Source: Lentilactobacillus rapi DSM 19907 = JCM 15042
GTDB taxonomy: Bacteria; Bacillota; Bacilli; Lactobacillales; Lactobacillaceae
Length of the DNA stretch: 40,022 nucleotides
Assembly (NCBI RefSeq): GCF_001436255.1
Contig: NZ_AZEI01000049.1
Span: 77,198-117,219 of the forward strand
Direction of reading: 5' to 3'
Positions within the stretch are counted from its first letter, which is position 1. Each line of letters starts with the position of its first letter. Shown piece by piece: positions 1 through 14,833 of the stretch. Position numbers and translations under genes: made by a program. The notes beneath the pieces were generated by a model that saw only the letters and a program-made list of their open reading frames with translations, searched no databases and was not told where the DNA came from.

Positions 1-296
1 CGACTTACACTCTGACTTCTAACCGCTTTACTCCGCCACTTATCTTAGGACAGTTCCGCAAAGCAACAATCTACATGTAAGCACCTCAACCAAAAATTCC
101 CAAAACCGGAATTTCTGTTTGAGGCGACTTACATTCCGGTTGCTAACCGCTTTGCTGCACTCACTTATCTTAGGACAGTTCCGCAAAGCAGCAACCTGCA
201 CGTAAGCACCACAAGCAAAAATTCCAAGGACCGGAATTCCTCCTTGTGGAGACTTACGCTCCGGTTGCTAACCGCTTTGCTGCACTCACTTTATTT
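1..296 (-). repeat. Tandem long-hairpin repeats upstream of thiM
   Basis: Two full copies and one partial copy of a roughly 125-base unit lie head to tail on the minus strand. The shared boundary CTTATCTTAGGACAG begins at 39 and again at 164, which gives the period. Each copy folds into a long imperfect hairpin. In the last copy, 209-225 pairs partly with 233-249 around a short loop, and flanking CGTAAG/CTTACG and GCAACC/GGTTGC segments extend the stem. The array ends about 10 bases before the thiM ribosome binding site, so it would lie in the thiM 5' leader if transcription starts upstream. The same family recurs at 1096, 6401, 13862 and 14646. No gene is seen here. Confidence 0.85.
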
Positions 297-310
297 TAAA
301 GGAGATTATC

Positions 311-1099
311 ATGAAAATAGATTTACTAGATACATTGCGAGAAAAGAACCCAATTGCTTTTAATATTTCCAACTTTGTGACGGTTCAAGACGTTGCCAAC
401 GGGATTAATGCCCTGGGAGCTTCACCGATCATGTCCGAAGAACAAAATGAAGCGGAAGCCATGGTCAAAATGTGTAACTCAGTAACCATCAACCTTGGAG
501 CATTTACAGAACCTCAGTTGGAGCAAATTGCCATGGTTTGTGCATTTGCCAACAAAGAAAAGAAACCAATTGTGGTTGATCCGGTCGCAGTTGGAGCGGT
601 TGAATATCGAACTGAGCGCTGCAATGAGTTGCTGGACCAAATTGATGTGGCCGTTATCCGTGGAAATGTGGGTGAAATTGCAGCTCTGGCGGATGTTGAA
701 TGGAACTCAAAGGGAATTGACGCTGGTGAAGGATCCGGCGACCGTGAAGAAATTGCCAAAAAGTTGGCAAAAAAGCGAAGCTGTGTCGTTGTGGAAAGTG
801 GTAAGACAGATATTATCACGGATGGCGAGGCAGTGGTTCGAATTTTCAATGAAACGGATCTCTTCAAACTGCATGTAGGTTCAGGTGATATGTTGTCCAG
901 TACGATTGGCTGTTTCTGTGGTGTTGAAAGTGACGCATTTGAAGCAGCCCAGACGGCAACGGCAGTGTTTGACGTGGCAGGTGAATTGGTTGCCAAGTCA
1001 ATGAAACAACCACTAGCAGGTTCGTTTGGCCCTCAACTAATCGATGAGTTACATTTGATAGATGTAAAGACGGTGGAGAAGTGGGCGGAATATGAATAA
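311..1099 (+). CDS. thiM: Hydroxyethylthiazole kinase ThiM
   Basis: Phosphorylates 4-methyl-5-(2-hydroxyethyl)thiazole in cytosolic thiamine salvage. The 262-residue length and the N-terminal NPIAFNISNFVTVQDVANGI match the family, which has a ribokinase-like fold. The anion-hole and catalytic segment is GSGDMLSS at residues 190-197. Position 193 is Asp, where the well-studied Bacillus subtilis enzyme has Cys, as I recall it. The start follows AAAGGAG at the usual spacing. It is the first of three thiamine genes on this strand, but repeats separate it from thiD by about 460 bases. No TPP riboswitch is visible in the 310 bases upstream; one could lie before the window. Confidence 0.95.
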   Translation: MKIDLLDTLREKNPIAFNISNFVTVQDVANGINALGASPIMSEEQNEAEAMVKMCNSVTINLGAFTEPQLEQIAMVCAFANKEKKPIVVDPVAVGAVEYRTERCNELLDQIDVAVIRGNVGEIAALADVEWNSKGIDAGEGSGDREEIAKKLAKKRSCVVVESGKTDIITDGEAVVRIFNETDLFKLHVGSGDMLSSTIGCFCGVESDAFEAAQTATAVFDVAGELVAKSMKQPLAGSFGPQLIDELHLIDVKTVEKWAEYE

Positions 1100-1520
1100 A
1101 TAAGAGTGCGAAATCAAGCGGTTAGAAACTGGAGCCTAAGTTTCCTCATCCATAAATCCTGGTTTTGGATTTATGGATGAGGAGGCTTAGGTGCAAGTTT
1201 CTGCTTGGTTGAGCACGTTTCCACTATGTAGCCAAGCAACAGAAATCCTGATTTTGGGATTTTTGAATCAGGTGCTTATGTGCAGATTCCTGCTTGGTTG
1301 AGCACGTTTCCACTATATAGCGGAGAATAACGAAAACGAGGCCAAAAGTTACAATCCTGGTTTTGGATTTGTGTTGGTGGTGCTTATGTGCAGGTTATTG
1401 CTTGGTTTCGCACGTTTCCACTATGTAGCCAAGCAACGGAAATCCTGGTTTTGGGATTTTTGAATAAGGTGCTTATGCCCTGCTTCCTGCTTGGCGAGCC
1501 CATTTCCACTCCGTAATTCA
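1096..1520 (+). repeat. Long-hairpin repeat plus partial tandem copies between thiM and thiD
   Basis: The first copy has a perfect 16-base inner stem (1144-1159 with 1167-1182) around the 7-base loop TGGTTTT. It is extended by CTAAG/CTTAG and GAAACT/AGTTTC. Degenerate copies follow to about 1520 and mainly repeat the right half, with GGTGCTTATGTGCAG-like and CTGCTTGG segments and the tail CACGTTTCCACTATGTAG. The block separates thiM from thiD and holds no credible ORF. If the three thi genes are one transcript, these hairpins are inside it and could affect termination or RNA stability. Confidence 0.85.
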
Positions 1521-1558
1521 TTTCAAATCAATAAGGATCAAAAAGAGGAGCACTTAAC

Positions 1559-2380
1559 ATGATTAATCAAACGGTACAAACGTTGACAATTGCCGGCACA
1601 GATAGTGGCGGTGGTGCTGGCGTGATGGCAGATATTAAGACGATGCAGGAACGGCATGTGTTCGCAGCCGCAGTGGTGGTTGCCGTGACCGCACAAAATA
1701 CGATTGGTGTCCAGGATTTTATGGCAATGCCAAAGAAAATGATCGAAGAACAATTTGCCTCTGTAGCAGGCGATTTGAAGATTCGCGCATGTAAGACAGG
1801 GATGCTCGCGGATGTCGCCACGGTAGAAGCGGTTGTCGAAAACTTAAAAAAGTATGATCTGGGTCCTTTAACCGTGGATCCTGTGATGATTGCCAAAGGC
1901 GGTGCCCGATTGTTGTCTGAAGACGCCATTGCAACGGTTCGAAATGAATTATTGCCGTTAGCGGATCTATTGACGCCAAATCTGCCAGAGGCTGAAGAAT
2001 TGACCGGTACTAAAATTGAAACCAAAGATCAAATGACCACGGCTGCCAAAAAGCTTCAAGAGCTGGGGGTCAAAAATGTCATCATTAAGGGTGGTCATCA
2101 GACGAGCTCAAAAGAATCTTCTGATTTTGTCCTCCTTGAAAGTGGCAAGTCATTCTGGGTAAGCTCGCCGAGAATCGATACGGTGCGTACTCACGGAACC
2201 GGCGACACGTTATCGTCTTGTATCACAGCCGAAATTGCAAAGGGCAAAGACATGGAGACGGCCATTCGAATTGGTAAGAAGTATGTTCAGGCAACCATTG
2301 CCAATGGAATTGAAGTTGGCCACGGTCACGGCCCATTAAACCACTGGGCCAAAATTTCTGATGAGGAGGTTGAAGATTAA
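1559..2380 (+). CDS. thiD: Hydroxymethylpyrimidine/phosphomethylpyrimidine kinase ThiD
   Basis: Carries out the two phosphorylations of hydroxymethylpyrimidine that give HMP-PP, the pyrimidine half of thiamine phosphate. The 273-residue protein shows the ribokinase-family signatures: DSGGGAGVMADIKTM near the N-terminus for substrate binding, VDPVMIAKGG in the middle, and HGTGDTLSSCI near residue 217 for the anion hole and catalytic Asp. AAGAGGAG precedes the ATG. The stop codon directly abuts the thiE start, so the two are probably translationally coupled. With thiM and thiE it forms a salvage set; no thiC- or thiG-type de novo gene is present in the window. Confidence 0.95.
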   Translation: MINQTVQTLTIAGTDSGGGAGVMADIKTMQERHVFAAAVVVAVTAQNTIGVQDFMAMPKKMIEEQFASVAGDLKIRACKTGMLADVATVEAVVENLKKYDLGPLTVDPVMIAKGGARLLSEDAIATVRNELLPLADLLTPNLPEAEELTGTKIETKDQMTTAAKKLQELGVKNVIIKGGHQTSSKESSDFVLLESGKSFWVSSPRIDTVRTHGTGDTLSSCITAEIAKGKDMETAIRIGKKYVQATIANGIEVGHGHGPLNHWAKISDEEVED

Positions 2381-3034
2381 ATGGGAATGAAATTTGATCC
2401 CTCAATGTTACGGAGCTACTTCATCGCCGGTACTCAGGATATCAAGGATGACCGCACCATTGGAGAAGTTTTGAAGCAGGCACTGGAAGCCGGTATCTCC
2501 GCCTTTCAATATCGTGAAAAAGGGCCAACGTCGTTAACTGGCGATGCAAAGCTGAAATTAGGCCGGAATTTGCGGGCATTATGTACTGACTATCAAGTGC
2601 CGTTTATTGTGGATGACGACGTGGAACTGGCGCTTGAAACAAACGCAGATGGGATTCATGTTGGCCAAAAAGATGAACGAGTGACCAAGGTAATCGACCA
2701 GGTTAATGGCCGGTTATTTGTTGGCTTGTCGTGTGATACTGCTGGCCAAGTTCAGATTGCCAATGAAACTGCCGGCATCAGCTACATCGGCAGTGGCCCT
2801 GTGTTTCCGACCGGTTCCAAAACCGACGCGGATCCGGTCATTGGTGTGGATGGTTTGGCAAAACTTGTGACCGTCAGCAAGTTGCCCGTTGTCGCAATCG
2901 GCGGAATTACCGAGGATAATCTCAAAGAGCTGCCAGCTACTGGGGTTGCCGGAACATCGGTAATCTCAATGATTGCCCAAAGTGACGACATTTTTCGGAC
3001 GGTCAAAGCGATGAACGCAGCTTTTGCCAAATAG
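2381..3034 (+). CDS. thiE: Thiamine phosphate synthase ThiE
   Basis: Joins HMP-PP and thiazole phosphate to give thiamine monophosphate, the convergence step for ThiM and ThiD products. The 217-residue TIM-barrel protein has the family motifs FQYREKG, VDDDVELALETNADGIHVGQ, and GPVFPTGSKTDADPVIG in the phosphate- and pyrophosphate-binding region, followed by VVAIGGI. The ATG follows thiD without a gap; its GAGGAGG site lies inside the end of thiD. A second in-frame ATG two codons later is possible. A hairpin with a T run lies shortly downstream and probably ends the operon. Confidence 0.95.
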   Translation: MGMKFDPSMLRSYFIAGTQDIKDDRTIGEVLKQALEAGISAFQYREKGPTSLTGDAKLKLGRNLRALCTDYQVPFIVDDDVELALETNADGIHVGQKDERVTKVIDQVNGRLFVGLSCDTAGQVQIANETAGISYIGSGPVFPTGSKTDADPVIGVDGLAKLVTVSKLPVVAIGGITEDNLKELPATGVAGTSVISMIAQSDDIFRTVKAMNAAFAK

Positions 3035-3088
3035 GTCGGAATTTCGGTTATTTGTGAAGATCATGATAGAATATCAAGTATAAGATTT

Positions 3089-3116
3089 GGCTAGTCTAAG
3101 TGACTAGTCTTTTTTC
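3089..3116 (+). terminator. Probable rho-independent terminator of the thi operon
   Basis: GCTAGTC and GACTAGT pair with one G-T wobble around a short loop and are followed by six T residues. It lies 55 bases after thiE and before the start of the next gene. It also argues against the GTG at 3100 as the start of the downstream gene, since that codon lies inside the hairpin. Confidence 0.7.
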
Positions 3117-3138
3117 ACAAATGATTGGTGGTCTCTCA

Positions 3139-3978
3139 ATGACAAATAATAAATCAAAACAAAACTTGTCGACAAAATTAGCAAATATTCAAAACCAAAT
3201 TGACCTCAGTAAAGCTCATAAGATTACGCCAACTCAATTAGATCATAATGTCCGCCGCTTCCGAGTTCAACCGCAAAATAATGTGACCGACCCAAATTGG
3301 CTGACCAACAATTTGGAACAGACGCAGGCTCGCGTGAAACAGCTTGAGGATAAGTATCCACTTCATAAAGTGTATTTCAATCGAATTTCGCACATGGGCT
3401 GGACGTGGATCGATCAGATGCCACTGGACTCAAAACGAATTGATGAACTGATGAAGTTGAATGTGCATGACCTGAATAAAACCTTCGAGGACGCGTTGAC
3501 GACGCATTCTTTTGAATTGTTGAACGCCAATTTTGATGACTTAGCGGATTCACTGGACGCAGGGCATGCCAAGCAGGTCAGGATGATTAAGGACCTGATC
3601 AATTTGGATCCTAAATACCATCTTGTTTTGTTCAACACCTTATTTGCAATTCTGGAAGAAACGACGATTAAAAAATATGGTCAACCTCACACTGCAACCT
3701 GGAATTATAATCCAGCCTTGAACGTTGTCAAACGGATTACCCACCAGATGCACAGTGACCAACAACGGCGATTTGGCAGGTTACTTGAATTAAACGAGTT
3801 GAATGTTGTAATGGGGTTATACAAGTACGCTGACTTCAATGAGTACACGTTAAAAACAATGCCCTATTCACGCCACACTGTTGAGCACGGTAGATTTGAC
3901 CCAAGCAACTTGACCTTTACCCAGTTCATGCAGCTGGTGTTGATTTGCAGAAACATTGCCTGGTCGCTGAAAAATTGA
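3139..3978 (+). CDS. Uncharacterised protein with a possible C-terminal HEPN-like motif
   Basis: A 279-residue cytosolic protein with no signal peptide or membrane segment. I do not recognise a named family with confidence. The first half is helical and charged. The end contains RHTVEHG (R245 to H250, an R-x4-H pattern) followed by a hydrophobic helix, FTQFMQLVLICRNIAWSL. This resembles the C-termini of some HEPN-type proteins found in defence and RNase contexts; that link is inference. I chose the ATG at 3139 because it follows GGTGG at a normal spacing and lies beyond the terminator; an ATG at 3121 is the alternative. It seems to be a single-gene unit, ended by the strong hairpin at 4017. 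Confidence 0.6.
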   Translation: MTNNKSKQNLSTKLANIQNQIDLSKAHKITPTQLDHNVRRFRVQPQNNVTDPNWLTNNLEQTQARVKQLEDKYPLHKVYFNRISHMGWTWIDQMPLDSKRIDELMKLNVHDLNKTFEDALTTHSFELLNANFDDLADSLDAGHAKQVRMIKDLINLDPKYHLVLFNTLFAILEETTIKKYGQPHTATWNYNPALNVVKRITHQMHSDQQRRFGRLLELNELNVVMGLYKYADFNEYTLKTMPYSRHTVEHGRFDPSNLTFTQFMQLVLICRNIAWSLKN

Positions 3979-4016
3979 CGGAAAAATAATGCAAATATCT
4001 TGAAAAAAGCCACGAA

Positions 4017-4070
4017 AAATGAGCCATATCCCAAACCGCAATGTTAACTTTGGGATATGGCTCATTTCAT
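4017..4070. terminator. Strong bidirectional terminator hairpin
   Basis: A perfect 19-base stem (4017-4035 with 4049-4067) lies between two converging genes. Read on the minus strand it is followed by TTTTT, so it fits the end of the exported protein gene at 4080; it can also stop the plus-strand gene ending at 3978. Confidence 0.85.
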
Positions 4071-4079
4071 TATTTGACG

Positions 4080-4571
4080 TCACTCTATATTAAACCCTTC
4101 AATATGAGCTTGGGGGACCTTGGCAATGGTTCCCGTCATCGATTTCATGACATCCGTATTATTGCGGGTGTAGTAATAAACTTTGTGAGGGGCAAAGTCC
4201 GGTGACTTCACTTTATATTCTTCTAGGACTGGTTGGGTAAAGCCAGCCACGTTTTTTTCGGTAATTCTAGCAATTGTGACATCCTGGGTATTCGGCGTTC
4301 CGAATGCTTTCCAGCCTTGAGTATTCGTGGGTCCAAACACAAAATAGTTTCCTGACCGGGTATAGTTGGTCGTCGGTGACGCAGTTCTGACACCATCTTT
4401 GTAAAAGGTAAATTCAGTTTCGTTACCATACCAATTACCTCGAAACGCTTTTGAAACGGCACTGGGATTGGCTGCAGCGGCATTGTTACGTTCATTTGAA
4501 TTCACGCCGGAAACAACGACTACTGTACAGAAGATTAACGTCAATAAAATGGTTATTGTTGATCTTTTCAT
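4080..4571 (-). CDS. Small exported protein of unknown function
   Basis: A 163-residue protein with an N-terminal signal: MKR, then a hydrophobic stretch (about residues 5-22), then a polar region rich in Asn and Ala. No lipobox Cys is present, so it is either secreted or held by an uncleaved anchor. The mature part starts with FRGNWYGNETEFTFYKDG and has several Tyr, Asn and Thr strands, a pattern like small beta-barrel or lipocalin-type domains that I cannot name. The start follows a GAAGTGATTC leader on the minus strand. It converges on the HEPN-like gene and diverges from the secreted protein gene at 4829. Confidence 0.7.
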   Translation of the reverse strand: MKRSTITILLTLIFCTVVVVSGVNSNERNNAAAANPSAVSKAFRGNWYGNETEFTFYKDGVRTASPTTNYTRSGNYFVFGPTNTQGWKAFGTPNTQDVTIARITEKNVAGFTQPVLEEYKVKSPDFAPHKVYYYTRNNTDVMKSMTGTIAKVPQAHIEGFNIE

Positions 4572-4828
4572 GATGAATCACTTCTTTCACACCATGAGTA
4601 TACCAATCTTATGTAAATAACTTGTAAATTTCTTGTATCAAGTCTGTACATTTTTTACGATAGGCAGAAAAATAACTCAACCGCGTTAATCATGTTACAC
4701 TGGAATTACTTACTCGTTACATATATTAGGTTTAGATAAAATTCGATGGATTTGCTTGCGAAAGGGCAGCAAACCGTTAATATGGAACTTGAGTAACAAA
4801 TCATATATTGAATTAAGGTGGGATAGTT

Positions 4829-6400
4829 ATGAAGGGACATTTTAAGCTGGCCGTTTCTGTGGCCTTCTTATTTGCTTCGGTTGGCATCTTTGGTGTTGGC
4901 TCAAGCGTCCATGCGGATGTGATTGATAATCCGGGTACAGCCGGATCGATCAGCCAGGTCAATTCTGGCAACGTCTTAAAGGACTATGATGAAAATTCCC
5001 TCAACAAAGTTGATAATTCGACTCCTGAGGGGAACATGAGTAAAAAGTACACCAAATATAGCCTTGATCCAACTGGCTATAACTATGGCAATAGTTATTC
5101 AACAATTGCCGGCAGTTCACAGAGCACATCTTTCAAGACAAAGTGGTTCTTGCCAGATGGCTTCAACGTTTCTGATTATCAACATGGGAACTTCCAAAGT
5201 GTCACTTTGGATGATGAAGGCAATATTTACTTCATCGAATCAAATGGAACGAACACTAACAAAGGAGCCATTGTTAAATTTAACCTTGCTAAGCTTCAAG
5301 AATTAGGGGTTGATTCTGACATCCTGTTACTGTGGAAGGCATTTGATTACTTCAACCCATTCTCTGATGAAGGGCTGCAGCATAATCAAGAATATGATCA
5401 GATTAACAGCCAGTTACAAGGGGCATTTGATCAGGTTAAATCTTTGACCAAGACCTTGAACCAGAACCAATCATGGCAGAATAATCAGGTAAACTACCAA
5501 AAGAATGCACAAAAATGGTATAAGAGCTGGAAGGCTAAGAAAGCTAAGTACACCAAGATTTCGAAGTCTTACAAGTACTCATATGCCACGAGAAATAAAG
5601 CTAAGAAGACCGTTAAACAAGCAACAGCTAAGATGGCAAAATGGATGAAGTCTTATCAAATGCATAAGGCCAAAGTTGCCAAATACAATACTAAGATTTC
5701 TGGTATTCAGAATCAATTGAACACCTACCAGAGTCAAATCGATGCTGCGAAGGCTCAGAACCCAGAAATGTTTAAGTACGTTGAAATTGCGCAAACTGCT
5801 CAATTGAGTCCTGAGGTTGATATTGGTCATGGGCAAACATTGTCATTTAACCCAGATAACGGCCATATCTACTTAGCGGAAGATAACACGTTAACTGATT
5901 TGGCATCCCGTGACGATAATAACACCGTCCTCGAAATGGATCCCGATACATTGAAACCAATTCGTGAATACAACTTCAAGATGTATCATGGTGACAGTGC
6001 CAACTTGCAATTGCATACCTTGGCGTTTGACAAGGATGGAAATGCTTATTGGGGTCGTAAATACAATGGTGGTTACATCTTCTTCTATGGTCGCCTCGAT
6101 CAAAATGGTGTAAGCTTCCAGGCTTCATCATCGTACGTCGGTAACCGTGGTGGCTCAACCAACCAAGGTGTTGCGGTCAACCCAGCAAATAATCGTCTGT
6201 ACTTCGTTTCAGATGATATTTTAACGTCAGTGCCAACAAGTAAGATCCAAAGTGGTAACTTCTCGGCAAGTGACGTGCATTACCAAGCATTTAATTCGGG
6301 CCGTGAGTTCGAGAGCTTAGCGTTTGACCAAGATGGTTACGGCTACTTGTTAGCCCTATGGCCACCAGAGTTAATGCAGTCGACGGATCCGTTAAATTAA
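4829..6400 (+). CDS. Secreted beta-propeller-like protein with coiled-coil insertion
   Basis: A 523-residue exported protein. The signal peptide ends near VHA at about residue 30. Two parts carry strand repeats such as LDDEGNIYFIES, FNPDNGHIYLAEDN, FDKDGNAYWGRK, VNPANNRLYFVSDD and FDQDGYGYLLA, typical of NHL/SMP-30-like propeller blades. They are split by a Lys-, Gln- and Tyr-rich coiled coil at about residues 185-310 with many KAKKAKY-type turns. No LPXTG motif or other anchor is visible, so the basic coiled coil may hold it to the wall (inference). The start is preceded by AAGGTGGG. Hairpin repeats begin just after the stop. Function unknown. Confidence 0.8.
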   Translation: MKGHFKLAVSVAFLFASVGIFGVGSSVHADVIDNPGTAGSISQVNSGNVLKDYDENSLNKVDNSTPEGNMSKKYTKYSLDPTGYNYGNSYSTIAGSSQSTSFKTKWFLPDGFNVSDYQHGNFQSVTLDDEGNIYFIESNGTNTNKGAIVKFNLAKLQELGVDSDILLLWKAFDYFNPFSDEGLQHNQEYDQINSQLQGAFDQVKSLTKTLNQNQSWQNNQVNYQKNAQKWYKSWKAKKAKYTKISKSYKYSYATRNKAKKTVKQATAKMAKWMKSYQMHKAKVAKYNTKISGIQNQLNTYQSQIDAAKAQNPEMFKYVEIAQTAQLSPEVDIGHGQTLSFNPDNGHIYLAEDNTLTDLASRDDNNTVLEMDPDTLKPIREYNFKMYHGDSANLQLHTLAFDKDGNAYWGRKYNGGYIFFYGRLDQNGVSFQASSSYVGNRGGSTNQGVAVNPANNRLYFVSDDILTSVPTSKIQSGNFSASDVHYQAFNSGREFESLAFDQDGYGYLLALWPPELMQSTDPLN

Positions 6401-6850
6401 AGTGTGCGGAGAAAAGCGCTTAGGCGCGGTAATATAAGAGTGACCCCTCTAAAATCCTGGTTTTGGATTTTAGAGGGGTCACTCTTATATTGTGAGCGCC
6501 TGCTTTTCGGAGCACCATTCAGCAATGAAATGGCGGACAACTGTTCCTGGATTTTAGGGGGACTGCTTTTATATTGTGAGCGCCTGCATTTCGGAGCACC
6601 ATTCGGCTATAGAAAGGCGGACAACTGTTCCTGGATTTTAGGGGGGGACTGCTCTTATATTGTGAGCGCCTGCATTTCGGAGCACCATTCGGCTATAGAA
6701 AGGCGGACAACTGTTCCTGGATTTTAGAGCGGTCACTCTTATATTTTTAGACAAGCGCCTGCATTTCGGAGCACCATTCAGCAATGAAGTAGCAGACAAC
6801 GACCGCAAATCATTTCTGCATTTTAGCGTTACTTCTCTCCATACTGTAAT
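6401..6850 (+). repeat. Long perfect hairpin repeat followed by half-unit tandem copies
   Basis: The first copy contains a perfect 27-base inner stem (6431-6457 with 6465-6491) around the loop TGGTTTT, extended by GGCGC/GCGCC and AAAAGC/GCTTTT-like segments. Right-half copies follow, with TTCCTGGATTTTAG recurring at about 6544, 6628 and 6714, a period of 84-86 bases. Each holds GAGCGCCTGCATTTCGGAGC or a near copy. The tail (CACCATTC, GGCGGACAAC) differs from the CTGTCCTAA tail of other loci, while the loop core is the same. No gene is seen; an ORF crossing the repeats is an artefact. Confidence 0.85.
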
Positions 6851-6901
6851 CATCAGGTTCTGAGGGATGCTTCACTCCTAACAATGCCATAACATCAGCA
6901 C

Positions 6902-7612
6902 TTATTGGTAAGCCTCCGCCAGCCCCTCAGCATCCGCTGTTGAAATTGAATTATCTTTGGTTTGTGGATACATGATACTTGTTGGAGAAGATGAATGAGT
7001 TAAGCCCAAGGCATGGCCCAACTCATGTTCAGCCACATGAAGCTGCTCAATTGAAGAATAATGATTGTTCTGGCAGACATTTTGATAAATTACCGAGTTG
7101 GCTGATTTAAATTTAATTAAGCCTGTCCCATTGGCTGAAGACGTTTTGTAGCTCAGAGTTGTTAATCCCGTGTGATTTGGGTTACTGCCATTGCTGACAC
7201 CCAAAGTAATATCTGGGGTTGAATCTCCAGCGACAGTCAGCTGGACGACGCCTAATGAATTCCATTGGGCAATTGAAACTTTCCAGATGGCTTGGTAATA
7301 ATTTGTGGGCGCCACAATTTTATATGTAATCTCGTTATCTGCCCAGCGATATCTGGCTGGAGTGATGACGTTGTTGTGAGTGTGGTAAATGGGGGAATTG
7401 TCAGCCAAATAAGTGTCAAAACTTTTTTTGACGTGTTTTTTGGCTGGCTTCGGGGTGTTCTGATGAACCCGCTTGACTTAGCGCGTGTGAACAACTTTTG
7501 ACTGTCTCACCAGATGACTGTCCTTCTGAGCAAAAACGGTTTCAGGGGAGGCAATCGTCATCATAGCGGTCGCGGTGATTGCAGCAAATAGAATCCGATG
7601 CAATTTTCTCAT
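6902..7612 (-). pseudogene. Secreted M10-type zinc metalloprotease interrupted by an in-frame stop
   Basis: Starting at ATG 7612 (GGAG nine bases upstream) there is a signal peptide, MRKLHRILFAAITATAMM to VFAQ, then a TAA at codon 45 (7478-7480). The same frame continues without shift as KRVHQNTPKPAKK and a complete protease domain of about 170 residues with HELGHALGLTH (codons 196-206) and a following SIMYP Met-turn. The exported enzyme can therefore be made only by readthrough or reversion; restart at ATG 7408 would give a leaderless protein. It is a paralogue of the intact gene at 10947. A strain difference or sequencing error is possible. Confidence 0.8.
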
Positions 7613-7633
7613 TTTATTTTCTCCATCAAATGA

Positions 7634-7672
7634 CACAAAAAAGGGGCCAGATGAATAACTCATCAGTCCCCG
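7634..7672 (-). terminator. Terminator-like hairpin in the leader of the broken protease gene
   Basis: On the minus strand, GGGGACTGATGA and TCATCTGGCCCC pair at 10 of 12 positions around GTTAT and are followed by six T residues. It lies about 25 bases before the protease start codon. It could end transcription from the S-layer-like gene about 400 bases upstream, or act as an attenuator for the protease. Confidence 0.6.
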
Positions 7673-7687
7673 ATTATTGTTGATCAT

Positions 7688-8076
7688 TTATTTTTAGTGC
7701 AAAGTTATAAATTAATGTGTTCCCTCTAAGAATTTCATATTCATACCCCATGACTTAGCTTAGCGTATTTTTTCACAATTGCAATAGCTTCCGAACTATT
7801 TTGTAATAATTTAGATGCAAAGGTTGATTTTCAACACTAGGCTTACTGTTAATGTGGTATTGCCATTATGACAAGCATTGAATCGCTTTATAAAAATGAG
7901 GAGAATCATTAATTCCAAATATTGACTTATATGTTGTGACGAATCAAAGCATCAGCAACCCTGGATAATGTTAGTGAAGGTTAATCAATGATTACTAATA
8001 GCTTATTGTTTTGTGCACAAACAAATTTTGTTTTCCTGTCTGTAAATGACTATCAAATGAGAAAATCAATTCTAAA
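7688..8076. other. Intergenic stretch without a recognisable gene
   Basis: AT-rich, no credible ORF and no member of the hairpin repeat family. It lies downstream of the minus-strand S-layer-like gene and upstream of the broken protease gene, so it should contain the protease promoter on the minus strand, but I cannot single out one convincing hexamer pair. Confidence 0.5.
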
Positions 8077-9402
8077 TTAATTTTGTGATTGCATGGGGTT
8101 AAACGTTAATTTAACGTAATTCACTTGGCCGTCCGCTGCTCGGGTGATGGTGAATGATACAACGTAAGTCACAGGAACATCATCTTCAGTGATGGTGATC
8201 GTTTTGGCGCCGTCTGCAGTCGTATTACTTGTCAACTTATTCATGATTGTCGCATCATCCCACCAAGTTGAACTGAGGCCATTGATAACTTGTTGATTTT
8301 CAGGTGCCTTGTAGAAGTTTTGAATGGTTTGGTTGGTCGTATCGATCACAAAATTATCTTTTAAAAAGCCAAGTGGTTTGCCCGGCAAAAGGGACACGTG
8401 AGCAATTCCGTTATTATCAAACGTCACTTGAACCTTGAAACTGAAGCTGCCCATAATCCCCGTATCAAACATATCGGCAATTTGACCATCGCCAAGCGCC
8501 TTCTTGATGGCGTTTTGGTTGGCGGCGCTTCGATCGTTGGCGTCATATTGATACCCATCAGCTGTGGGGAAGGAATAAGCGTAGATGGTGTGGGCAAGCT
8601 TATTGTAGTTGACGTTATCATCCCCTGAAAGCGAAACATCCTTGGTTGACATGACCGCAAATGTCTGCAGATTCGTGGTTGTAGGGGTGGGAGTCGGTGC
8701 TGGTGCTGGCGTGACGTTGGCGTTTCCCGGCTGAGTAGTCGTTAAAGCAGTGGCTTCAATCCAACCGTTTACCTCGGGGTGAGTGTCATCAGTGATGTAG
8801 AAATATTTTGTATTATTTCGCGAATTCATAGTTGATTGGGTCACTTTCAACTCGTCGTTAGCGTACGGTTGGGATGAATCAATCACCTTGTGGGTTTTAT
8901 ATTGCGTCCAGGTTGGATAATTGCGGGTCACGGAGTCTTGACCTGGATCTTTGAAGTAGTAGGTGCTATTCTGCTCGGTGCTGCTCAGGGTGTCGCTAAC
9001 GGTGGTCGAAACCGACTGGACGCCACCATCAAACGTGCTGGTAGATTTGCCGCCATAAATCCAGCCCCGGTACTTCTGATCGAAGCTGACGATCTTGTAA
9101 TAGACGGATCCCCGGGAAGTGGTAGCGACCCGATAAGCCCGAAAGAACTTCTGGGGGTTACTTGAGTTGCCAAGGGTGCTCATGGTATAAGTGGTGGCAA
9201 GCTTTCGAGCACCTTTCAGTGTCCCAGCTTTAGTGTACAAGGCGTTTGTCCCGGTCGTTGTGACATTGCGAGAAGTTGGTGCCGCCGTCATGGTGACGTT
9301 TGATTTTACCTTTGCGTAAGATTTGGCGCTGACTTGATTCGGGACTGCCCAGAGCAACAGCCCGCCAGCTAACAACGCCGAAGAAGCATTAATGATTTTC
9401 AT
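8077..9402 (-). CDS. Secreted S-layer-like protein (L. brevis SlpA-type N-terminus)
   Basis: A 441-residue exported protein. I place the start at 9402, where ATG follows TTAGGGGG and a clear signal peptide begins (MKIINASSALLAGGLLL to VSA); a longer upstream frame has no such support. The mature N-terminus, with RNVTTTGTNALYTKAGTLKG, RAYRVATTSRGSVYYKIV and KYRGWIYGGKS, closely resembles the wall-binding half of the L. brevis S-layer protein as I remember it. A Pro/Thr linker near residue 215 leads to a different C-terminal domain of about 210 residues that I do not recognise. It probably decorates the wall non-covalently, next to the main S-layer protein. Confidence 0.75.
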   Translation of the reverse strand: MKIINASSALLAGGLLLWAVPNQVSAKSYAKVKSNVTMTAAPTSRNVTTTGTNALYTKAGTLKGARKLATTYTMSTLGNSSNPQKFFRAYRVATTSRGSVYYKIVSFDQKYRGWIYGGKSTSTFDGGVQSVSTTVSDTLSSTEQNSTYYFKDPGQDSVTRNYPTWTQYKTHKVIDSSQPYANDELKVTQSTMNSRNNTKYFYITDDTHPEVNGWIEATALTTTQPGNANVTPAPAPTPTPTTTNLQTFAVMSTKDVSLSGDDNVNYNKLAHTIYAYSFPTADGYQYDANDRSAANQNAIKKALGDGQIADMFDTGIMGSFSFKVQVTFDNNGIAHVSLLPGKPLGFLKDNFVIDTTNQTIQNFYKAPENQQVINGLSSTWWDDATIMNKLTSNTTADGAKTITITEDDVPVTYVVSFTITRAADGQVNYVKLTFNPMQSQN

Positions 9403-9594
9403 TGTGAACCCCCTAAGATTATTTAAGAATAGTTTGATAATAGAAAATCCATATGTAGTTTCATCTTTAATTATACTGGTACCAGACATTGATTGACAAA
9501 CTTTAATTTTGCAGCGCAATTTCTTGCCACGGTTGTCAAAACAAGCTATCTTTGAGTTGAAATGTAAGGGTAACCATAATGGGAGGTTGTTATC

Positions 9595-10242
9595 ATGATG
9601 AGCCTGAATTATACAGAGCAATTTGCGTTGTGCGTGTTGGGACAGAAGCCGAAACTGAATGCCTTTAAAAAACGAGAGGTCGCAGCTTGCCTGCTGCTAT
9701 CAGAAATTGTCGAGTTACTACGTGATGGGAGCCTCCAACTGACTGCAGATGATAAGATGGTTGTCGGCCCCGGCGCCAAGCCTTTCAAAGATTATTTGGT
9801 GCCAGTTGCCAGAGATATTCAAGGCCGTAAGTCGCAGACAATTAATAGTTATATCAAAAATGCCGTTTTGTCCGTCAGAAAAAAGCGGGTGACGGAATTT
9901 GCGGCGGCACTTTGTAACTCGTTAATCAGCGACAACATGCTGGATGAAGATGAGAATAAATACTACGTCAATCAAACGGTGATCGACCGCAGCTTAACGG
10001 AACTCTATCACGATTTGACAACTGATAAGGAGCCCCACGAAGTAACGGTAATGTTGGCGATGCTGCTGATTAATTCAGGCTTGTTCAAGCGCTATTTCCC
10101 AAAGGATGAGGCGACGCAAATTCAACTGCGGTTGAAAGAAGTTGCAAAGTCAGATCAGTATCCGTTGATTTCGGATGTGATTAAAAGAGTGCACACCGAA
10201 TTGTCTCGGATTGTTGCCAGCGTGCGAAGAGAAACGGTTTGA
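9595..10242 (+). CDS. Possible GPP34/GOLPH3-like helical protein
   Basis: A 215-residue soluble, mostly helical protein. The arrangement (N-terminal EQFALCVLG, a helix with REVAACLLLSEIVELLRDGSLQL, then a central helix pair, YYVNQTVIDRSLTELYH, and EVTVMLAMLLINSGLFKRYF) resembles the GPP34 (GOLPH3/Vps74) family, which binds phosphoinositides in eukaryotes and has an unclear role in bacteria. I am only moderately sure. The ATG follows GGAGG at eight bases. It is divergent from the S-layer-like gene and ends before a perfect terminator hairpin, so it is probably monocistronic. Confidence 0.6.
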   Translation: MMSLNYTEQFALCVLGQKPKLNAFKKREVAACLLLSEIVELLRDGSLQLTADDKMVVGPGAKPFKDYLVPVARDIQGRKSQTINSYIKNAVLSVRKKRVTEFAAALCNSLISDNMLDEDENKYYVNQTVIDRSLTELYHDLTTDKEPHEVTVMLAMLLINSGLFKRYFPKDEATQIQLRLKEVAKSDQYPLISDVIKRVHTELSRIVASVRRETV

Positions 10243-10269
10243 GTTTCGATTGAAAAAACGGTTAATTCC

Positions 10270-10334
10270 AAAATATAAGCCAATCACCTGGACATTCGAG
10301 TTTGGAATGTTGGGATGATTGGCTTATATTTTAA
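10270..10334 (+). terminator. Long terminator hairpin
   Basis: A perfect 17-base stem (10270-10286 with 10316-10332) lies 27 bases after the preceding stop; the right arm ends in a short T run. It can serve both directions. Confidence 0.75.
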
Positions 10335-10421
10335 GAAATGCTTTTTGAACTAAGGCTTAGCAATATCGCATTCGGAAGTTCGAAGTTGTTGACTATTAAC
10401 CAGCTTCTTGTTTTCACGATT

Positions 10422-10796
10422 TTATTCGACTGGGTACTTTGCCTTGAGGGCATTTAAGGCGGTCACGTAAACCATCGTCGGCTTCTTGCCAGCCATAAAA
10501 TCGGCAGCATCAGCTTCACTGACATTCATTTCCTTGAGCCAAGCAGTTTCTGCCAAATGAGCGGACTTTTTGACCGTCGTGAGCTTTGCCAACAGTTCTG
10601 CTGGCGTTAAGCTCAATAGGTAAAGGCGTTGAATCTGCTTCAAAACAGATTCGTAAACACCACTGGCAGCTTCCTTCTTATTGTATTCGGCAATTTCTGC
10701 TGGCGTGAATTCAACAATATTGAACAGATAATCGTCAGGGAGCTTCAATTTATCTTGGTAATCTTTGATCTTTGCAAATAATTCATCAACAGACAT
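10422..10796 (-). CDS. Small uncharacterised helical protein
   Basis: A 124-residue cytosolic protein with the start placed at MSVDELFAKIKDYQDKL, where GAGG lies at a good distance. A start at 10838 would add 14 residues but overlaps another SD-like AAGGAGA. It is strongly helical, with LTPAELLAKLTTVKKSAHLAETAWLKEMNVSEADAADFMAGKK. The last part loosely recalls the recognition helix and GK turn of an XRE-type HTH; that is a guess. No function can be assigned. A hairpin that could end the protease gene transcript lies upstream. Confidence 0.55.
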   Translation of the reverse strand: MSVDELFAKIKDYQDKLKLPDDYLFNIVEFTPAEIAEYNKKEAASGVYESVLKQIQRLYLLSLTPAELLAKLTTVKKSAHLAETAWLKEMNVSEADAADFMAGKKPTMVYVTALNALKAKYPVE

Positions 10797-10897
10797 TCTA
10801 AAACCTCGCATAGATTTAGTGTGGTACATCTCCTTCATGATAAAGCAAAAAATGGCAGATTGCTACTGGAGATGAATTGGACATCAGTTAAATGACT

Positions 10898-10945
10898 AAA
10901 ACCACCATTCGGACTAGATAACTTCTACCGAATGGTGGCTTTTTA
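10898..10945. terminator. Terminator hairpin after the intact M10 protease
   Basis: CCACCATTCGG (10902-10912) pairs perfectly with CCGAATGGTGG (10928-10938), flanked by AAA and TTT so that it can act on either strand. It lies directly downstream of the minus-strand protease gene. Confidence 0.8.
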
Positions 10946-10946
10946 A

Positions 10947-11684
10947 TTAACTGGCATAGGCGCGTTTAACTGCTTCCACATCATTATTGGTGATTTGGCG
11001 GCCAACTGGGGTCGGATTCATGATGCTGTGATCGGAATCCGAATGTCCCAAGCCGATCGCGTGACCGAGTTCATGTTCAGCGACCCGCGTGCGGTCTGAT
11101 TTCGAGTACTTATGATCGTTGCAGGTATTATCGTACACAATCGCAGTGGCTACTTTTAGCAGCGGCAGGTTATTCAACCGCGTTTGGTTATAAAAAGTCG
11201 TGGTACATAAACCGGAATGTTCGGGCCGAACCGCGGTGCTGGCATCCAAATGGACATCTGGGGTCTCGCCATTAGCCCTGACCAACTTGACGACGTTAAA
11301 TTGATTCCAGCTATCAACGGCCGTCTTCCAAATGCCTTGATAATAATCACTATTGGTGTCGATCTTGTATTTGATCGTTGAACTCTTCCAACGATATCTG
11401 ACGGGGGTCGCCACATCATCCTGCTGTTCAACCGCATATTCTGGTTGAAAATTGCTCTGTTGAGAATTGGACTTGGAATTCTTTTTCTTCGTCACTTTCT
11501 TCTTTGTGGCGTTGCGCTTCTTTTTCGGCACCTTTTTCTTAGTGGCCTTCTGTTTGGCCTTGGCATGGCTGGCTGTTTGACTTTCCGAGTTGCTTGGTGC
11601 AGACAGCTCAATCACTTTGGCCGTTCCCAAAATGATTACAATCAGTGATATAATGGCAATTCCTAATTTTAATAATGCTTTCAT
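10947..11684 (-). CDS. Membrane-anchored or secreted M10-type zinc metalloprotease
   Basis: A 245-residue extracytoplasmic peptidase. The start at 11684 follows AAGGAGA. An N-terminal hydrophobic segment (about residues 5-25) acts as signal or anchor, followed by a very Lys-rich spacer (KKKVPKKKRNATKKK) that may contact the anionic wall. The catalytic domain runs from about residue 95. It holds HELGHAIGLGH at 204-214 with the three zinc His and Glu205, then HSIMNP as the Met-turn, as in matrixin-like archaeal and bacterial proteases. It is a paralogue of the broken gene at 6902; substrate unknown. Confidence 0.85.
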   Translation of the reverse strand: MKALLKLGIAIISLIVIILGTAKVIELSAPSNSESQTASHAKAKQKATKKKVPKKKRNATKKKVTKKKNSKSNSQQSNFQPEYAVEQQDDVATPVRYRWKSSTIKYKIDTNSDYYQGIWKTAVDSWNQFNVVKLVRANGETPDVHLDASTAVRPEHSGLCTTTFYNQTRLNNLPLLKVATAIVYDNTCNDHKYSKSDRTRVAEHELGHAIGLGHSDSDHSIMNPTPVGRQITNNDVEAVKRAYAS

Positions 11685-11920
11685 GACGATCTCTCCTTCG
11701 GGCTTTGGGCGCGGAGTGTTATTAGGCAAACCGCGTCTTCATAACGATTTAGTCCCCACTAAATTTCCCTCAGAAGTTATCACTTAACCATATCCTTATG
11801 ATAACCATTAATTATTTAAACGTCATTTTTAACGCCTATCATTGATTTTCAGTAGGCAAAACGCATAATCTGCGTTAGAATAACACAAGCACTTTAGCTA
11901 GACAGACATTGGAGGTACTC

Positions 11921-13861
11921 ATGAGCTACTTAGAATTACGCAACATTAAGAAATCATATTACTTGGGCAGCCAGGAATTCCCAGTATTAACCGGGATTGA
12001 CTTGTCATTTGATCAAGGGGAGTTTGTCTCGATCCTCGGTGAATCCGGCGGTGGGAAGACGACCCTGATGAATATCATTGGTGGCCTGGACAGTAATTAT
12101 TCTGGGGATGTTGTATTGAATGGCAACTCCTTGCGCCATGATACTTCCAAACAATTGGACGCATACCGACGCCAGACGATTGGGTTTATTTTCCAAAATT
12201 TCAACTTAATTAGTCATTTGACGATTTTTGAAAATGTTATGGTTTCCTTGGAAATGACGACGTTAAGCCATAAGCAGCAGGAACAGCGGGCCCGAGAATT
12301 GTTGACCAAAGTTGGCTTAAAAGAACACATGAAGAAGTACCCCAACCAGATTTCTGGCGGTCAAAAACAACGGGTGGCAATTGCCCGCGCCTTGGCTTCT
12401 GATCCGGAAATTATCATCGCTGACGAGCCAACGGGAGCCTTGGATAGTCAAAATACTCAGGAAATTTTGCAGCTGTTGGACGAAATTGCGACCGATGGTA
12501 AATTAGTGATCACCGTGACCCATTCACAGACGGTAGCTGATTTTGGAACCCGGATTGTCCGGTTGGCTGATGGAAAAATTGGCGAGGATAAAGCCATTAA
12601 AGAACCATACAAAGCCAGCGCAGCCAACGAATTATCAACTCGAACGTTGAAATTTGGTGCCACTTTAAAGATGGCTCTGGAAAACATGAAGTACAACGTG
12701 AAACGAAACCTGCTCATTGTTTTCGGCGCGGCGATCGGAATTTTTAGTGTCATCGTGATGCTGGGACTTGGGAATGGCGTGCAGGGTTACATTAACCACG
12801 AAATTTATTCGCAGGTGAATCCGAATGCCGTTCAGGTTACGAAAAATGTGTCAACCGATTCCAGTCCGGATATGAATAAGATTAATGTGAACGCGAAGGA
12901 TAAATCGCGGATTAAGAACATTAAGAACGTGCAAAGCATTGATAACGGCTTCTTCGTTCAGGGTGGCAGCCAATTGCGCCAGGGAAGAAAGACCGCGTCA
13001 GTGTCGTTTATGCAGACGTATAATAAGACAATTCTGAATAAGAGTATTTCCAAAGGCAAGGCGCCAAAAGACGGTCAGATTATGCTGACAAAGGAAATTG
13101 CTGAGAAGTTCAACAAGAAGAACCCTAATTCGATGGTGGGCAAGAAGATTACCTTCTATCAGAATACGTTGAATAAGCAAAAACGGCCGATTGTTTTAAC
13201 GCGGACATTGACAGTGAGTGGCGTTTCCAAAGCCAACACGGGTTCTACATCGGTGACCTATAACACGATGAAGTCGATTTACCATTCCAAAGGCTTGAGC
13301 ATTAAGCCGAACTTTGTGACGGTTGAAATTGCTGGCAATGTTAAGAACGTGAAGCCGGTGACCAACAAGATCAAGACATTCAAGAATGAAAAAGGTAAGG
13401 CAGCTTACCAGATCACTGGCGTGGGTGGCTTTGTGGATACGTTGAACACGTATATTACATTGGCGGTTGACGTCTTGGCGACGATTGCCGGCATTTCGCT
13501 GCTGGTATCGGCAATTATGATCATTGTCGTGCTCTATATCAGCGTTTCGGAACGAACCAAGGAAATTGGTATCTTGCGGGCATTGGGGGCATCAAAGGGC
13601 AGTATCAGAAACCTGTTCTTCTCGGAAGCCTTCTTCATTGGCTTGTTCTCCTCAGTATTGGCGATTGCCTTAGCCGAAATTCTCCAGCTAGTCGCGAATA
13701 ATATCGCCCAGTCGGGAATCAACTACTCGATTATGCAAATATCGACGGGTAATTTAATCTTCGGCTTCCTGGTCTCAGTCATCATCTCACTGTTGGCAGC
13801 ATTGGCTCCAGCGGGTAAGGCTGCGAGGTTGGATCCGATTGAGAGTTTGAGTTATGAATAA
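11921..13861 (+). CDS. MacB-type ABC transporter, fused ATPase and permease
   Basis: A 646-residue protein with the ATPase first and a MacB/FtsX-type permease after it. Walker A GESGGGKTT starts at residue 40, the signature SGGQKQR near 145, and Walker B IIADEPTGALD near 164. A first membrane segment follows at about 264-284 (LLIVFGAAIGIFSVIVMLGLG), then a large extracytoplasmic domain of roughly 220 residues, then three C-terminal membrane segments with the FtsX-like sequence SERTKEIGILRALGAS. Such proteins move peptides or lipoproteins, or work in antimicrobial resistance; the substrate here is unknown. The ATG at 11921 follows GGAGG, better than the TTG at 11909. No partner gene adjoins it. 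Confidence 0.88.
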   Translation: MSYLELRNIKKSYYLGSQEFPVLTGIDLSFDQGEFVSILGESGGGKTTLMNIIGGLDSNYSGDVVLNGNSLRHDTSKQLDAYRRQTIGFIFQNFNLISHLTIFENVMVSLEMTTLSHKQQEQRARELLTKVGLKEHMKKYPNQISGGQKQRVAIARALASDPEIIIADEPTGALDSQNTQEILQLLDEIATDGKLVITVTHSQTVADFGTRIVRLADGKIGEDKAIKEPYKASAANELSTRTLKFGATLKMALENMKYNVKRNLLIVFGAAIGIFSVIVMLGLGNGVQGYINHEIYSQVNPNAVQVTKNVSTDSSPDMNKINVNAKDKSRIKNIKNVQSIDNGFFVQGGSQLRQGRKTASVSFMQTYNKTILNKSISKGKAPKDGQIMLTKEIAEKFNKKNPNSMVGKKITFYQNTLNKQKRPIVLTRTLTVSGVSKANTGSTSVTYNTMKSIYHSKGLSIKPNFVTVEIAGNVKNVKPVTNKIKTFKNEKGKAAYQITGVGGFVDTLNTYITLAVDVLATIAGISLLVSAIMIIVVLYISVSERTKEIGILRALGASKGSIRNLFFSEAFFIGLFSSVLAIALAEILQLVANNIAQSGINYSIMQISTGNLIFGFLVSVIISLLAALAPAGKAARLDPIESLSYE

Positions 13862-14105
13862 ATAAGTGAGCGGAGCCAGGTGGTTAGAAACTGTAACATA
13901 AGTCTCCTTTTTCGAAAATCCCGGTTTTGGGGATTTTTGAAAAAGGTGCTTATGTGGAAGTTTCTGCCTGGCGGAGCTGTCCTAATCTATGTAAAATAGA
14001 ACGACCACAAACTACAAGGGAATTTTTGGCAGAGGTGCTTATGTGTAGCTTTCTGCTTTGCGGAGCTGTCCTCATCTATGTAAAAGAGAATAACTACAAG
14101 GAAAT
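13862..14105 (+). repeat. Long-hairpin repeat with a partial second copy
   Basis: The full copy begins at the transporter stop codon. Its inner stem (13906-13922 with 13929-13946) encloses GGTTTT and is extended by CATAAG/CTTATG, AGAAACT/AGTTTCT and CCAGG/CCTGG. It ends with GCGGAGCTGTCCTAATC. The second copy keeps mainly the right half (GGTGCTTATGTG, CTTTGCGGAGCTGTCCTCATC). The block may also serve as the 3' end of the transporter transcript. Confidence 0.85.
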
Positions 14106-14327
14106 TTTGCTAAAGAAATGCCACAATTAATTTATGATTCTGAGTGTAACGATCATTAAAAAGGGCTACGTCGAAGTCGTAAAATAATAATCAAGCAGTT
14201 TTCCCAATGCTAACTATCCTGAGAAGACCATTTTTTATCATTATTTTTTCATATGCAACATTCCCAATATAAAGGGACCTGTAATCGCTTTACATGATTG
14301 GTCCCTATATCAAAATTAGAATTTCCC
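14106..14327. other. Intergenic stretch with one small inverted repeat
   Basis: No credible gene. The only structure I see is GGGACC (14274-14279) pairing with GGTCCC (14300-14305), with TGTAA/TTACA nested inside. No clear T run follows on the plus strand, so I do not call it a terminator with confidence. Confidence 0.4.
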
Positions 14328-14355
14328 TTGACATTCTCATAATTGCGACTAAACT
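14328..14355 (+). promoter_or_regulatory. Probable promoter of the methionine T-box transcript
   Basis: TTGACA at 14328-14333, a 16-base spacer, then TAAACT at 14350-14355. It lies about 20 bases before the start of the T-box stem I region, which is the expected place. Confidence 0.6.
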
Positions 14356-14375
14356 CATTAAGTAAATTGATAAAC

Positions 14376-14645
14376 AAACGCAGTGAAAAGATGAGTAATC
14401 TTGGAACGGTATCAAGAGAGTTCACATTTGGTGAGAGTGAATTGCCGGGAATTGACGAAGATGGTCTTTGAGCAGGATGTTGTTGAGTGTCAACAAAGCA
14501 ACGTGGTTAAACACACCTTACAGTGTTCGGGCATTGATCCTAGTGCTCAGTGAGTCGCGTAGTGTAAGCTGCGTGAAAATTAAGGTGGTAACACGACAAT
14601 ATCGTCCTTGTACAGATGCATTTCTGTATGGGGACGTTTTTTTAT
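14376..14645 (+). promoter_or_regulatory. Met-specific T-box riboswitch 1
   Basis: The T-box sequence AAGGTGGTAACACGAC at 14582-14597 precedes a terminator (14603-14643, CGTCC to GGGACG, then seven T). Upstream, AGTA and an AGAGAG...GGTGAGA element mark stem I. The specifier region reads GACGAAGATGGTCTTTGAGC; aligned with the known pattern GAA-N-codon-R, the codon is ATG at 14461-14463, for methionine. Uncharged tRNA-Met should favour the antiterminator and expression of the MetE-like gene. Confidence 0.9.
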
Positions 14646-14790
14646 TTAGTGAGCGGATCCAAGCGCTTAGAAGTCGGAGCGTAAGTCGCCGTCAACGGAA
14701 ATTCCCGGGCTTGGAATTTTCGTTGAGGGTGCTTACGTGCAGACTTCTGCTTGGAGGAGCTGTCCTAAAGTAAGTGAGCAGCGTAACCAT
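14646..14790 (+). repeat. Long-hairpin repeat inside the leader of the MetE-like gene
   Basis: A complete copy lies between the T-box terminator and the ribosome binding site. The inner stem is 14692-14705 with 14713-14726 (one wobble); GCGTAAG/CTTACG, AGAAGTC/GACTTCT and CCAAGC/GCTTGG extend it. It ends GGAGCTGTCCTAAAGTAAGTGAG. Because the T-box must be upstream on the same RNA, this copy should be transcribed and lie in the 5' UTR. Confidence 0.85.
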
Positions 14791-14833
14791 TTTGCTTTGC
14801 ATAACTATCAAAAAAATTAGAGGAGTGGTCAAA

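Follow-up and report, generated by a model that had tools for sequence, protein, structure and literature searches.

How can the two arms of a long hairpin take different sequences at different loci and still pair with each other? The question arises in a 40,022-nucleotide (nt) stretch of the genome of Lentilactobacillus rapi DSM 19907 = JCM 15042 (contig NZ_AZEI01000049.1, positions 77,198 to 117,219), hereafter called the window, where hairpin repeats had been predicted from the letters alone at 1-296, 1096-1520, 6401-6850, 13862-14105 and 14646-14790. The original prediction regarded them as one family and proposed that what keeps the arms complementary is either selection for the hairpin or some form of copying in which one arm is rewritten to match its partner. 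Members of the family are present at all five places, each matched by a profile search, which confirms that they belong together. A comparison with a sister species (genome G011) answers part of the question: the paired arm changes arrive when units exchange sequence with other members of the family, as a rule with the two arms moving together. We also propose, as a reading that we consider about evenly balanced between right and wrong, that the repeats form a high-copy family of non-coding, non-autonomous mobile elements, so far met only in Lactobacillaceae, which would be recognised as a folded single strand.

Structure and covariation of the unit

A typical unit is about 113 nt long, starts with AGTGAGC (or AGTGTGC, AGAGTGC) and ends with GAGC, often followed by TGTCCTA. 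Tandem units repeat at about 125 nt, separated by spacers mostly of 4-8 nt after TCCT. The idea of one family stands, with the correction that most members are a fixed module of about 113 nt, often in tandem about 125 nt apart.

A 39-pair, five-helix structure was drawn from 35 diverse units of the L. rapi genome (the home genome), and in it the outer stem bases of the unit pair. In these units 95.7% of the cells are paired, against 77.6% when partners are shuffled, a figure favoured by the structure having been drawn from the same 35 units. Double-change cells number 270 as compared with 80.5 after shuffling, 29 pairs carry double changes, and sliding the structure by one column lowers pairing to 44.8-49.6%. 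For G094, a genome from another genus, the corresponding values are 97.0% of cells paired and 343 double-change cells against 103.6, in an alignment that was fitted to the model and hence leans toward it. The covariation is strong and recurs in another genus. The arms do differ between loci while pairing, as had been predicted.

Among 202 full home units, we counted 48 versions of helix H2, 60 of H3, 24 of H4 and 148 of the first nine pairs of H5. The co-varying outer arms noticed in the window proved to be common helix types, GAAACT/AGTTTC occurring in 25 of these units, GAAGTC/GACTTC in 42 and GCAACC/GGTTGC in 14. The internal loops are GGTTA (140 of the 202 units, with T opposite in 200), GGAG (145, with TGCA opposite in 128) and TCT (136, with TG opposite in 190). 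No helix contains more than one unpaired position in 178 units, and at least three positions are unpaired in one helix in 14.

Exchange of hairpins between copies

The flanks of 118 home arrays were matched to 42 stretches of G011, which gave 38 sites with both flanks in one stretch. Six of these (indices 5, 9, 18, 29, 33, 117) were dropped by hand for short flank matches, for partial or single old units, or, for a T-box site, in order to be treated separately; three of the remaining 32 had no full units, which left 29 sites and 42 unit pairs. At sites with unequal unit numbers the comparison was limited to the first units; at sites with equal numbers it went by position, whatever changes of order had occurred.

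The 42 unit pairs split at 14 differences, where there is a gap: 11 of them carry 1-13 differences and 31 carry 18-40. The 11 unreplaced pairs hold 40 differences in all, with 18 base pairs changed on one side and none on both. In the 31 replaced pairs, 269 base pairs have changed on both sides, of which 264 are standard in the two species alike, and 94 have changed on one side. The original prediction had stated in advance that it would fall if the arm differences were ordinary drift, with as many unpaired changes; for the replaced units these counts speak against such drift. Made between sister species in place of strains, the comparison revealed paired arm replacement at 31 of the 42 unit pairs and drift at the other 11. 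The two classes of orthologous units rule out ordinary compensatory drift as the main process. As for the two causes first proposed, the rewriting of one arm from the other is not supported, since none of the 18 changed pairs of the unreplaced units is a double change; either selection or the exchange mechanism itself may keep the pairing intact.

Ten of the 31 replaced units differ at no more than one of the outer 29 columns and at 17-39 positions inside. This pattern is seen in 7.2% of equally different random pairs of home and G011 units (p = 4e-5), and these ten units are inner-hairpin swaps in place. The other replaced units look like whole-unit replacements. Within the home genome itself, 43 of the 202 units have another unit at least 97% identical inside, and 21 of these are less than 90% identical outside. 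Unit number differs between the species in steps of about 125 nt, and the order of units is permuted in L031 and L032. In one of the 11 unreplaced pairs (L046:3338-3575) the first unit is a chimera, its right arm matching that of its neighbour, with its pairing broken; this is the only one-armed exchange among the 42. From one sister species to the other, units appear, disappear and change order, and block replacement affects either the inner hairpin or the whole unit.

Paired substitutions usually count as proof that an RNA structure has been under slow selection. Here they come by block exchange while the unreplaced copies drift one-sidedly, so that recombination among copies can bring covariation.

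Polarity and anchoring of the arrays

The first unit outscores the last in 53 of the 73 home arrays of at least two units (p = 2e-6). Of 24 partial units, 17 are the last of their array, 6 lie in the middle and a single one comes first, and unit-like remnants occur in 16 of 109 right flanks compared with 1 of 109 left flanks. G094 has the same polarity, the first unit outscoring the last in 22 of 25 arrays (p = 1e-4; one antisense duplicate match removed) and 7 of 8 partial units being last. Orientation is mixed in 1 of 118 home arrays, 0 of 56 in G011 and 0 of 44 in G094. An intact left (5') end and a decayed right end are what growth at the left and decay at the right would predict.

The left end is also the one that sits at gene borders. 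Genes were called by a simple scan for open reading frames (ORFs), with approximate start codons, and one array of mixed orientation was excluded. When the upstream gene is co-oriented, its stop codon lies -6 to +9 nt from the left end in 35 of 47 home arrays; the stop codon of a convergent gene comes that close to the right end in 2 of 53. When the upstream gene is divergent, its start codon lies 9-28 nt from the left end in 34 of 65 arrays, against 2 of 57 at the right end. Of 114 left flanks, 50 have a Shine-Dalgarno complement within the 20 nt next to the array, compared with 2 of 114 right flanks and with 2-5 of 114-116 at control positions further left. In G094 (39 stretches, 44 arrays) a terminator-like T-run adjoins the left end in 13 of 44 arrays and the right end in 1 of 44, shifted controls giving 1-4. 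Both types of anchor could be accounted for by one shared preference for tracts rich in A or T at the edges of genes. By its position in many lactobacilli, the family adds or removes blocks of about 125 nt beside ribosome-binding sites and stop codons.

The folded strand

Over helices H2-H4 and nine pairs of H5, the 202 home units contain 5253 Watson-Crick pairs, 224 G-T, 62 A-C and 113 others. G-T and A-C should be about equally frequent if there were no strand preference, and the excess of G-T thus indicates that the conserved fold is that of the element's plus strand. At the ninth pair of H5 a G-T is the rule; leaving this pair out, the ratio is 149:62, and H2-H4 alone give 65:44. The cells are not independent and the computed p-values are therefore too small; if each helix version is counted a single time, the ratio becomes 183:54. 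The excess goes in the same direction beside co-oriented genes (62:19) and beside divergent genes (150:41), which argues that the fold belongs to the element and not to the host messenger RNA (mRNA).

Folding was computed for the four plus-strand units of the window, with z-scores of -7.8 to -12.1 against shuffles, the two minus-strand units not being included. Two units folded on both strands were about 14 kcal/mol more stable on the plus strand (-61.1 versus -47.3 and -64.9 versus -51.2 kcal/mol).

Units of the window and their sites in relatives

The members found in the window are the following.

2..36, minus strand: partial unit at the window edge, end of an array (nhmmer 18 bits, profile positions 6-40)
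55..165, minus strand: full unit (91.1 bits; match of covariance model R1, described below, at G000:C66:77243-77362)
180..290, minus strand: full unit, the 5'-most of its array (91.6 bits; R1 match at G000:C66:77368-77487), its 5' end toward the start of ORF 311-1099
1103..1214, plus strand: full unit, 3 nt past the stop codon of ORF 311-1099 (72.4 bits; fold -64.9 kcal/mol, z -11.8; arms 1124/1167 of 36 nt, 86% complementary)
1232..1303, plus strand: partial unit with a shortened left arm
1342..1406, plus strand: partial unit
1427..1496, plus strand: partial unit, the last of the array
6401..6513, plus strand: unit of a long-arm subfamily, at distance 0 from the stop codon of ORF 4829-6400 (35.4 bits; fold -68.8 kcal/mol, z -12.1)
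6579..6800, plus strand: degenerate copies of the unit's right half, spaced by 84-89 nt (repeat family D4)
13865..13977, plus strand: full unit, 3 nt past the stop codon of ORF 11909-13861 (79.8 bits; fold z -8.7)
14018..14066, plus strand: partial unit to the right of the preceding full unit
14648..14760, plus strand: full unit behind the T-run that follows a T-box leader (98.8 bits; fold -61.1 kcal/mol, z -7.8)

The unit at 6401-6513 belongs to an outlying long-arm subfamily and scores 35 bits with the main profile; its inner arms (6431/6465) are 27 nt long, as had been read there, and 100% complementary.

The T-box leader (14374-14612; Rfam RF00230, 99.6 bits) is the sole match of Rfam in the window at gathering score; in another stretch, L031:4400-5300, Rfam gave 20 matches with E up to 10, all below gathering. 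The unit at 14648 stands between the T-run of the T-box terminator and the ribosome-binding site of the next ORF. Its site is filled in G004, with the same outer part and other arms, and empty in G011, G014, G008, G022 and G009; G004 is 81-82% identical to the home genome and thus more distant than G011 (89%). At 14774-14812, and at the same place in G004, a short AGTGAGC... sequence resembles a second unit minus its inner hairpin.

Of 16 genomes compared (home included), 9 carry an element at the stop codon before 13865, be it of this subfamily or of a related one, and 7 carry none; the elements start no more than a few bases away from that codon. In G003 and G019 the first bases of the element provide the stop of the gene orthologous to that ending at 13861 (GAG TGA versus GAA TAA). 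G021 and G008 carry at this stop codon hairpins of other subfamilies with the same layout (ACGAGCCCCGGG... arms), and G004 a hairpin of the long-arm type. Three further home sites are empty in relatives, S1 in five, S3 in four (G011 included) and S4 in four. The home array of S4 takes the place of about 85 nt of upstream sequence.

Copy number and distribution

A blastn search with the unit 14645-14764 gave 73 matches in the home genome, and a profile search of the stretches around them 141 non-overlapping matches, 118 of them near full length. The covariance model R1, built from the 35 diverse home units and covering the long-arm subfamilies poorly, found at least 150 copies each in the home genome, G011 and G094. 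With stricter filters that miss weak matches, R1 was found in 23 of 60 genomes of a first sample (home included), which comprised 23 genomes of other families of the order, all without a match, and in 97 of 251 Lactobacillaceae genomes, in 23 of 40 genera, of a second one. The covariance-model search that had been suggested finds members across the genus and beyond. R1 also matched 8 of 72,556 plasmid records, seven from Lactiplantibacillus plantarum and one from Lentilactobacillus parabuchneri, and no record of a phage collection. A scan for an exact pattern returned 11 stretches, from L. dabitei (8), L. kisonensis (2) and L. parakefiri (1).

How the family could have spread

We propose that the most economical account is that of a non-autonomous element read as a folded plus strand, together with recombination between copies. 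The plus strand would fold, either as single-stranded DNA or as a transcript of the element; an enzyme would recognise it and add units at the left edge of the array; and recombination between copies would swap hairpins. Pairing would survive while the sequence changes because both arms travel together. The elements are probably non-autonomous. In favour of this reading count the covariation, the two classes of orthologous units, the inner-hairpin swaps, the sites filled in one genome and empty in a relative, the left-end anchoring, the polarity of the arrays and the G-T excess. If it is true, the polar arrays would provide a handle on the mobile-DNA enzyme.

Several observations weigh against such mobility. 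No enzyme, circular form or autonomous parent was found, the search for a partner having covered Y1 transposase and reverse transcriptase, and recombination of old copies could explain much of what we observed. No target-site duplication was detected at the array ends, the flanks of 65 arrays being no more alike than shuffled ones. In the home genome the left flank and the spacers are alike over 5 nt (325 of 535 matches, a value reached in 0 of 2000 permutations), with no decay with spacer position; G094 does not show this likeness (36 of 160; mean of the permutations 45.4), and we thus make no general claim of a 5-nt left-flank duplication at each unit. The type of anchor differs between genera: the home genome has no excess of T-runs (8 of 114 left flanks, 5 of 114 right, 11 of 116 shifted 20 nt left), and Shine-Dalgarno complements are barely enriched in G094 (9 of 44 left versus 4 right; 1, 5 and 7 at shifted positions). 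Among the G094 arrays listed, orientation is not biased relative to the replication fork (54/118), the origin having been placed from an ORF at position 1 that we take to be DnaA. Finally, four plasmid records, at two sites, display small one-sided differences only, without any swap.

A bolder form of the proposal, which we consider rather unlikely, is a structure-addressed cassette system. An enzyme would read the plus-strand shape and conserved internal loops of the 113-nt hairpin and not the sequence of its stem, add hairpins at one end of gene-border arrays and exchange them between arrays; with nothing but shape and loops being read, the arms could vary freely, and the two would move as one. 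A parallel can be drawn with CRISPR arrays, which grow at one end, and with the attC cassettes of integrons, which are recognised as a folded single strand with a variable stem sequence. The analogy is one of behaviour only, since here there are no cassette genes and the repeated unit itself is the hairpin. Such a system, if true, would join the array polarity known from CRISPR to folded-strand cassettes like those of integrons, with neither genes nor spacers.

On the other hand, one could assume that the units are old repeats that do not transpose, in which unequal crossing-over, gene conversion and selection against broken hairpins give the swaps and the length changes. This explanation, doubtful to about the same degree as the cassette system, fits the swaps with retained outer stems, the steps of about 125 nt, the permuted unit order, the L046 chimera and the 14 units with at least three unpaired positions in one helix. 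However, it leaves the left-end anchoring and the one-sided decay unexplained, and the site behind the T-box is filled at home and in the distant G004 while being empty in the closer G011, which a loss in G011 would also explain. An improbable alternative is that the units are RNA elements of untranslated regions, selected by the host for mRNA stability, termination or translation control, and spread for serving genes. The G-T excess, the conserved loops and the position against stop codons and Shine-Dalgarno sequences would suit this role. Nevertheless, the fold is kept on the element's strand in both gene contexts, so that in about half of the contexts the mRNA would carry the other strand, and sites are empty in relatives. 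Replacement of native terminators was rejected: terminator-like sites lie within 150 nt to the right of 9 of 37 stop-codon arrays, as they do for ordinary, element-free genes (58 of 217).

The arm-from-arm copying of the original prediction corresponds to template switching during replication, in which one arm is copied onto the other within the hairpin (quasipalindrome correction). This mechanism is known, has been proposed for RNA hairpins in the part of the source consulted (PMC8794818), and the perfect 27-nt arms at 6431 are what it could produce. The absence of double changes among the 18 changed pairs of the unreplaced units, together with the asymmetric internal loops, conserved in most of the 202 units and which repeated arm copying would erase, disfavours it as the main process and makes it extremely improbable as an explanation of the family; template switching could have made new arm versions in the past. 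Very improbable, too, are elements of the REP/REPIN kind moved by a Y1 transposase (IS200/IS605, RAYT), or copies resembling short interspersed nuclear elements (SINEs) moved by a reverse transcriptase. Y1 enzymes typically act on folded single strands, the home genome has one IS605-type TnpA, and REP/REPIN are likewise dispersed extragenic palindromes of high copy number. But REP sequences are short, 20-40 bp in the portion of the source consulted (PMC3733652), as compared with about 113 nt here. The co-occurrence expected with RAYT was not found: 36 of the 97 genomes with the element and 40 of the 154 others have Y1_Tnp (Pfam PF01797 only; p = 0.07); for reverse transcriptase (RVT_1) the figures are 19 of 97 and 44 of 154 (p = 0.14), such association being only a proxy. 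Both are absent from the element-bearing Lentilactobacillus genomes G006, G008, G009, G021 and G022, and the lack of fork orientation bias also counts against these enzymes. The TnpA of the home genome (assigned by Pfam) forms with a TnpB-like ORF (assigned by reading) a divergent pair of IS605 type (L065, G000:C22:109952-110317).

Comparison with known repeats

The family has the general features of structured interspersed repeats, namely high copy number, intergenic position and a conserved fold with covariation. In Enterococcus faecalis, EFAR elements have a modular make-up and insert into stem-loop targets. The comparisons that follow draw on parts of the cited papers. EFAR/Efa-1 is intergenic, 163 bp long and present in 65 copies (18 in brackets in the table), and resembles the present family as an intergenic structured repeat of Lactobacillales predicted to fold as paired stem-loops (PMC2267715). 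It consists of two adjacent stem-loops, in contrast to one long hairpin here, a distinction made by description and not by sequence comparison; arm swapping, array polarity and gene-edge anchoring do not appear in the consulted part of that account. BOX, RUP and SPRITE of Streptococcus pneumoniae are small interspersed repeats of high copy number with extensive secondary structure, thought to be parasitic; one BOX combines with T boxes into a composite structure, and BOX has relatives in S. suis (PMC3049150). The repeats bcr1-bcr18 of the Bacillus cereus group are intergenic, about half of their copies are expressed within mRNAs, and some resemble miniature inverted-repeat transposable elements (MITEs) while others have a conserved structure (PMC3446304). 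Both groups were likewise compared by description, not by sequence.

Unlike MITEs of the DDE type, the present arrays lack target-site duplications (flanks of 65 arrays). They also differ from CRISPR arrays, which consist of near-identical repeats with unique spacers of 20-40 nt, by their variable repeats and their spacers of 4-8 nt. Structured interspersed repeats are already known. Beyond the original prediction, the analysis adds the 5'-end anchoring, the one-way arrays and the plus-strand fold bias. In the open-access literature, most subscription papers lying outside this scope, we found no account of the family, of its polarity or of block arm exchange in lactobacilli.

Additional observations

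Runs of N lie inside hairpins at L032:4073-4193, in L063 (3469-3583) and in the G011 stretch L163, and the repeats probably cause some of the contig breaks, through failure of assembly at arrays. The window also contains, at 10219-10345, a possible older member of the family. It begins with AGCGTGCGAAG, 74% identical to the start of the unit at 6401, and continues with a hairpin whose arms (10270/10305) are 28 nt long and 86% complementary.

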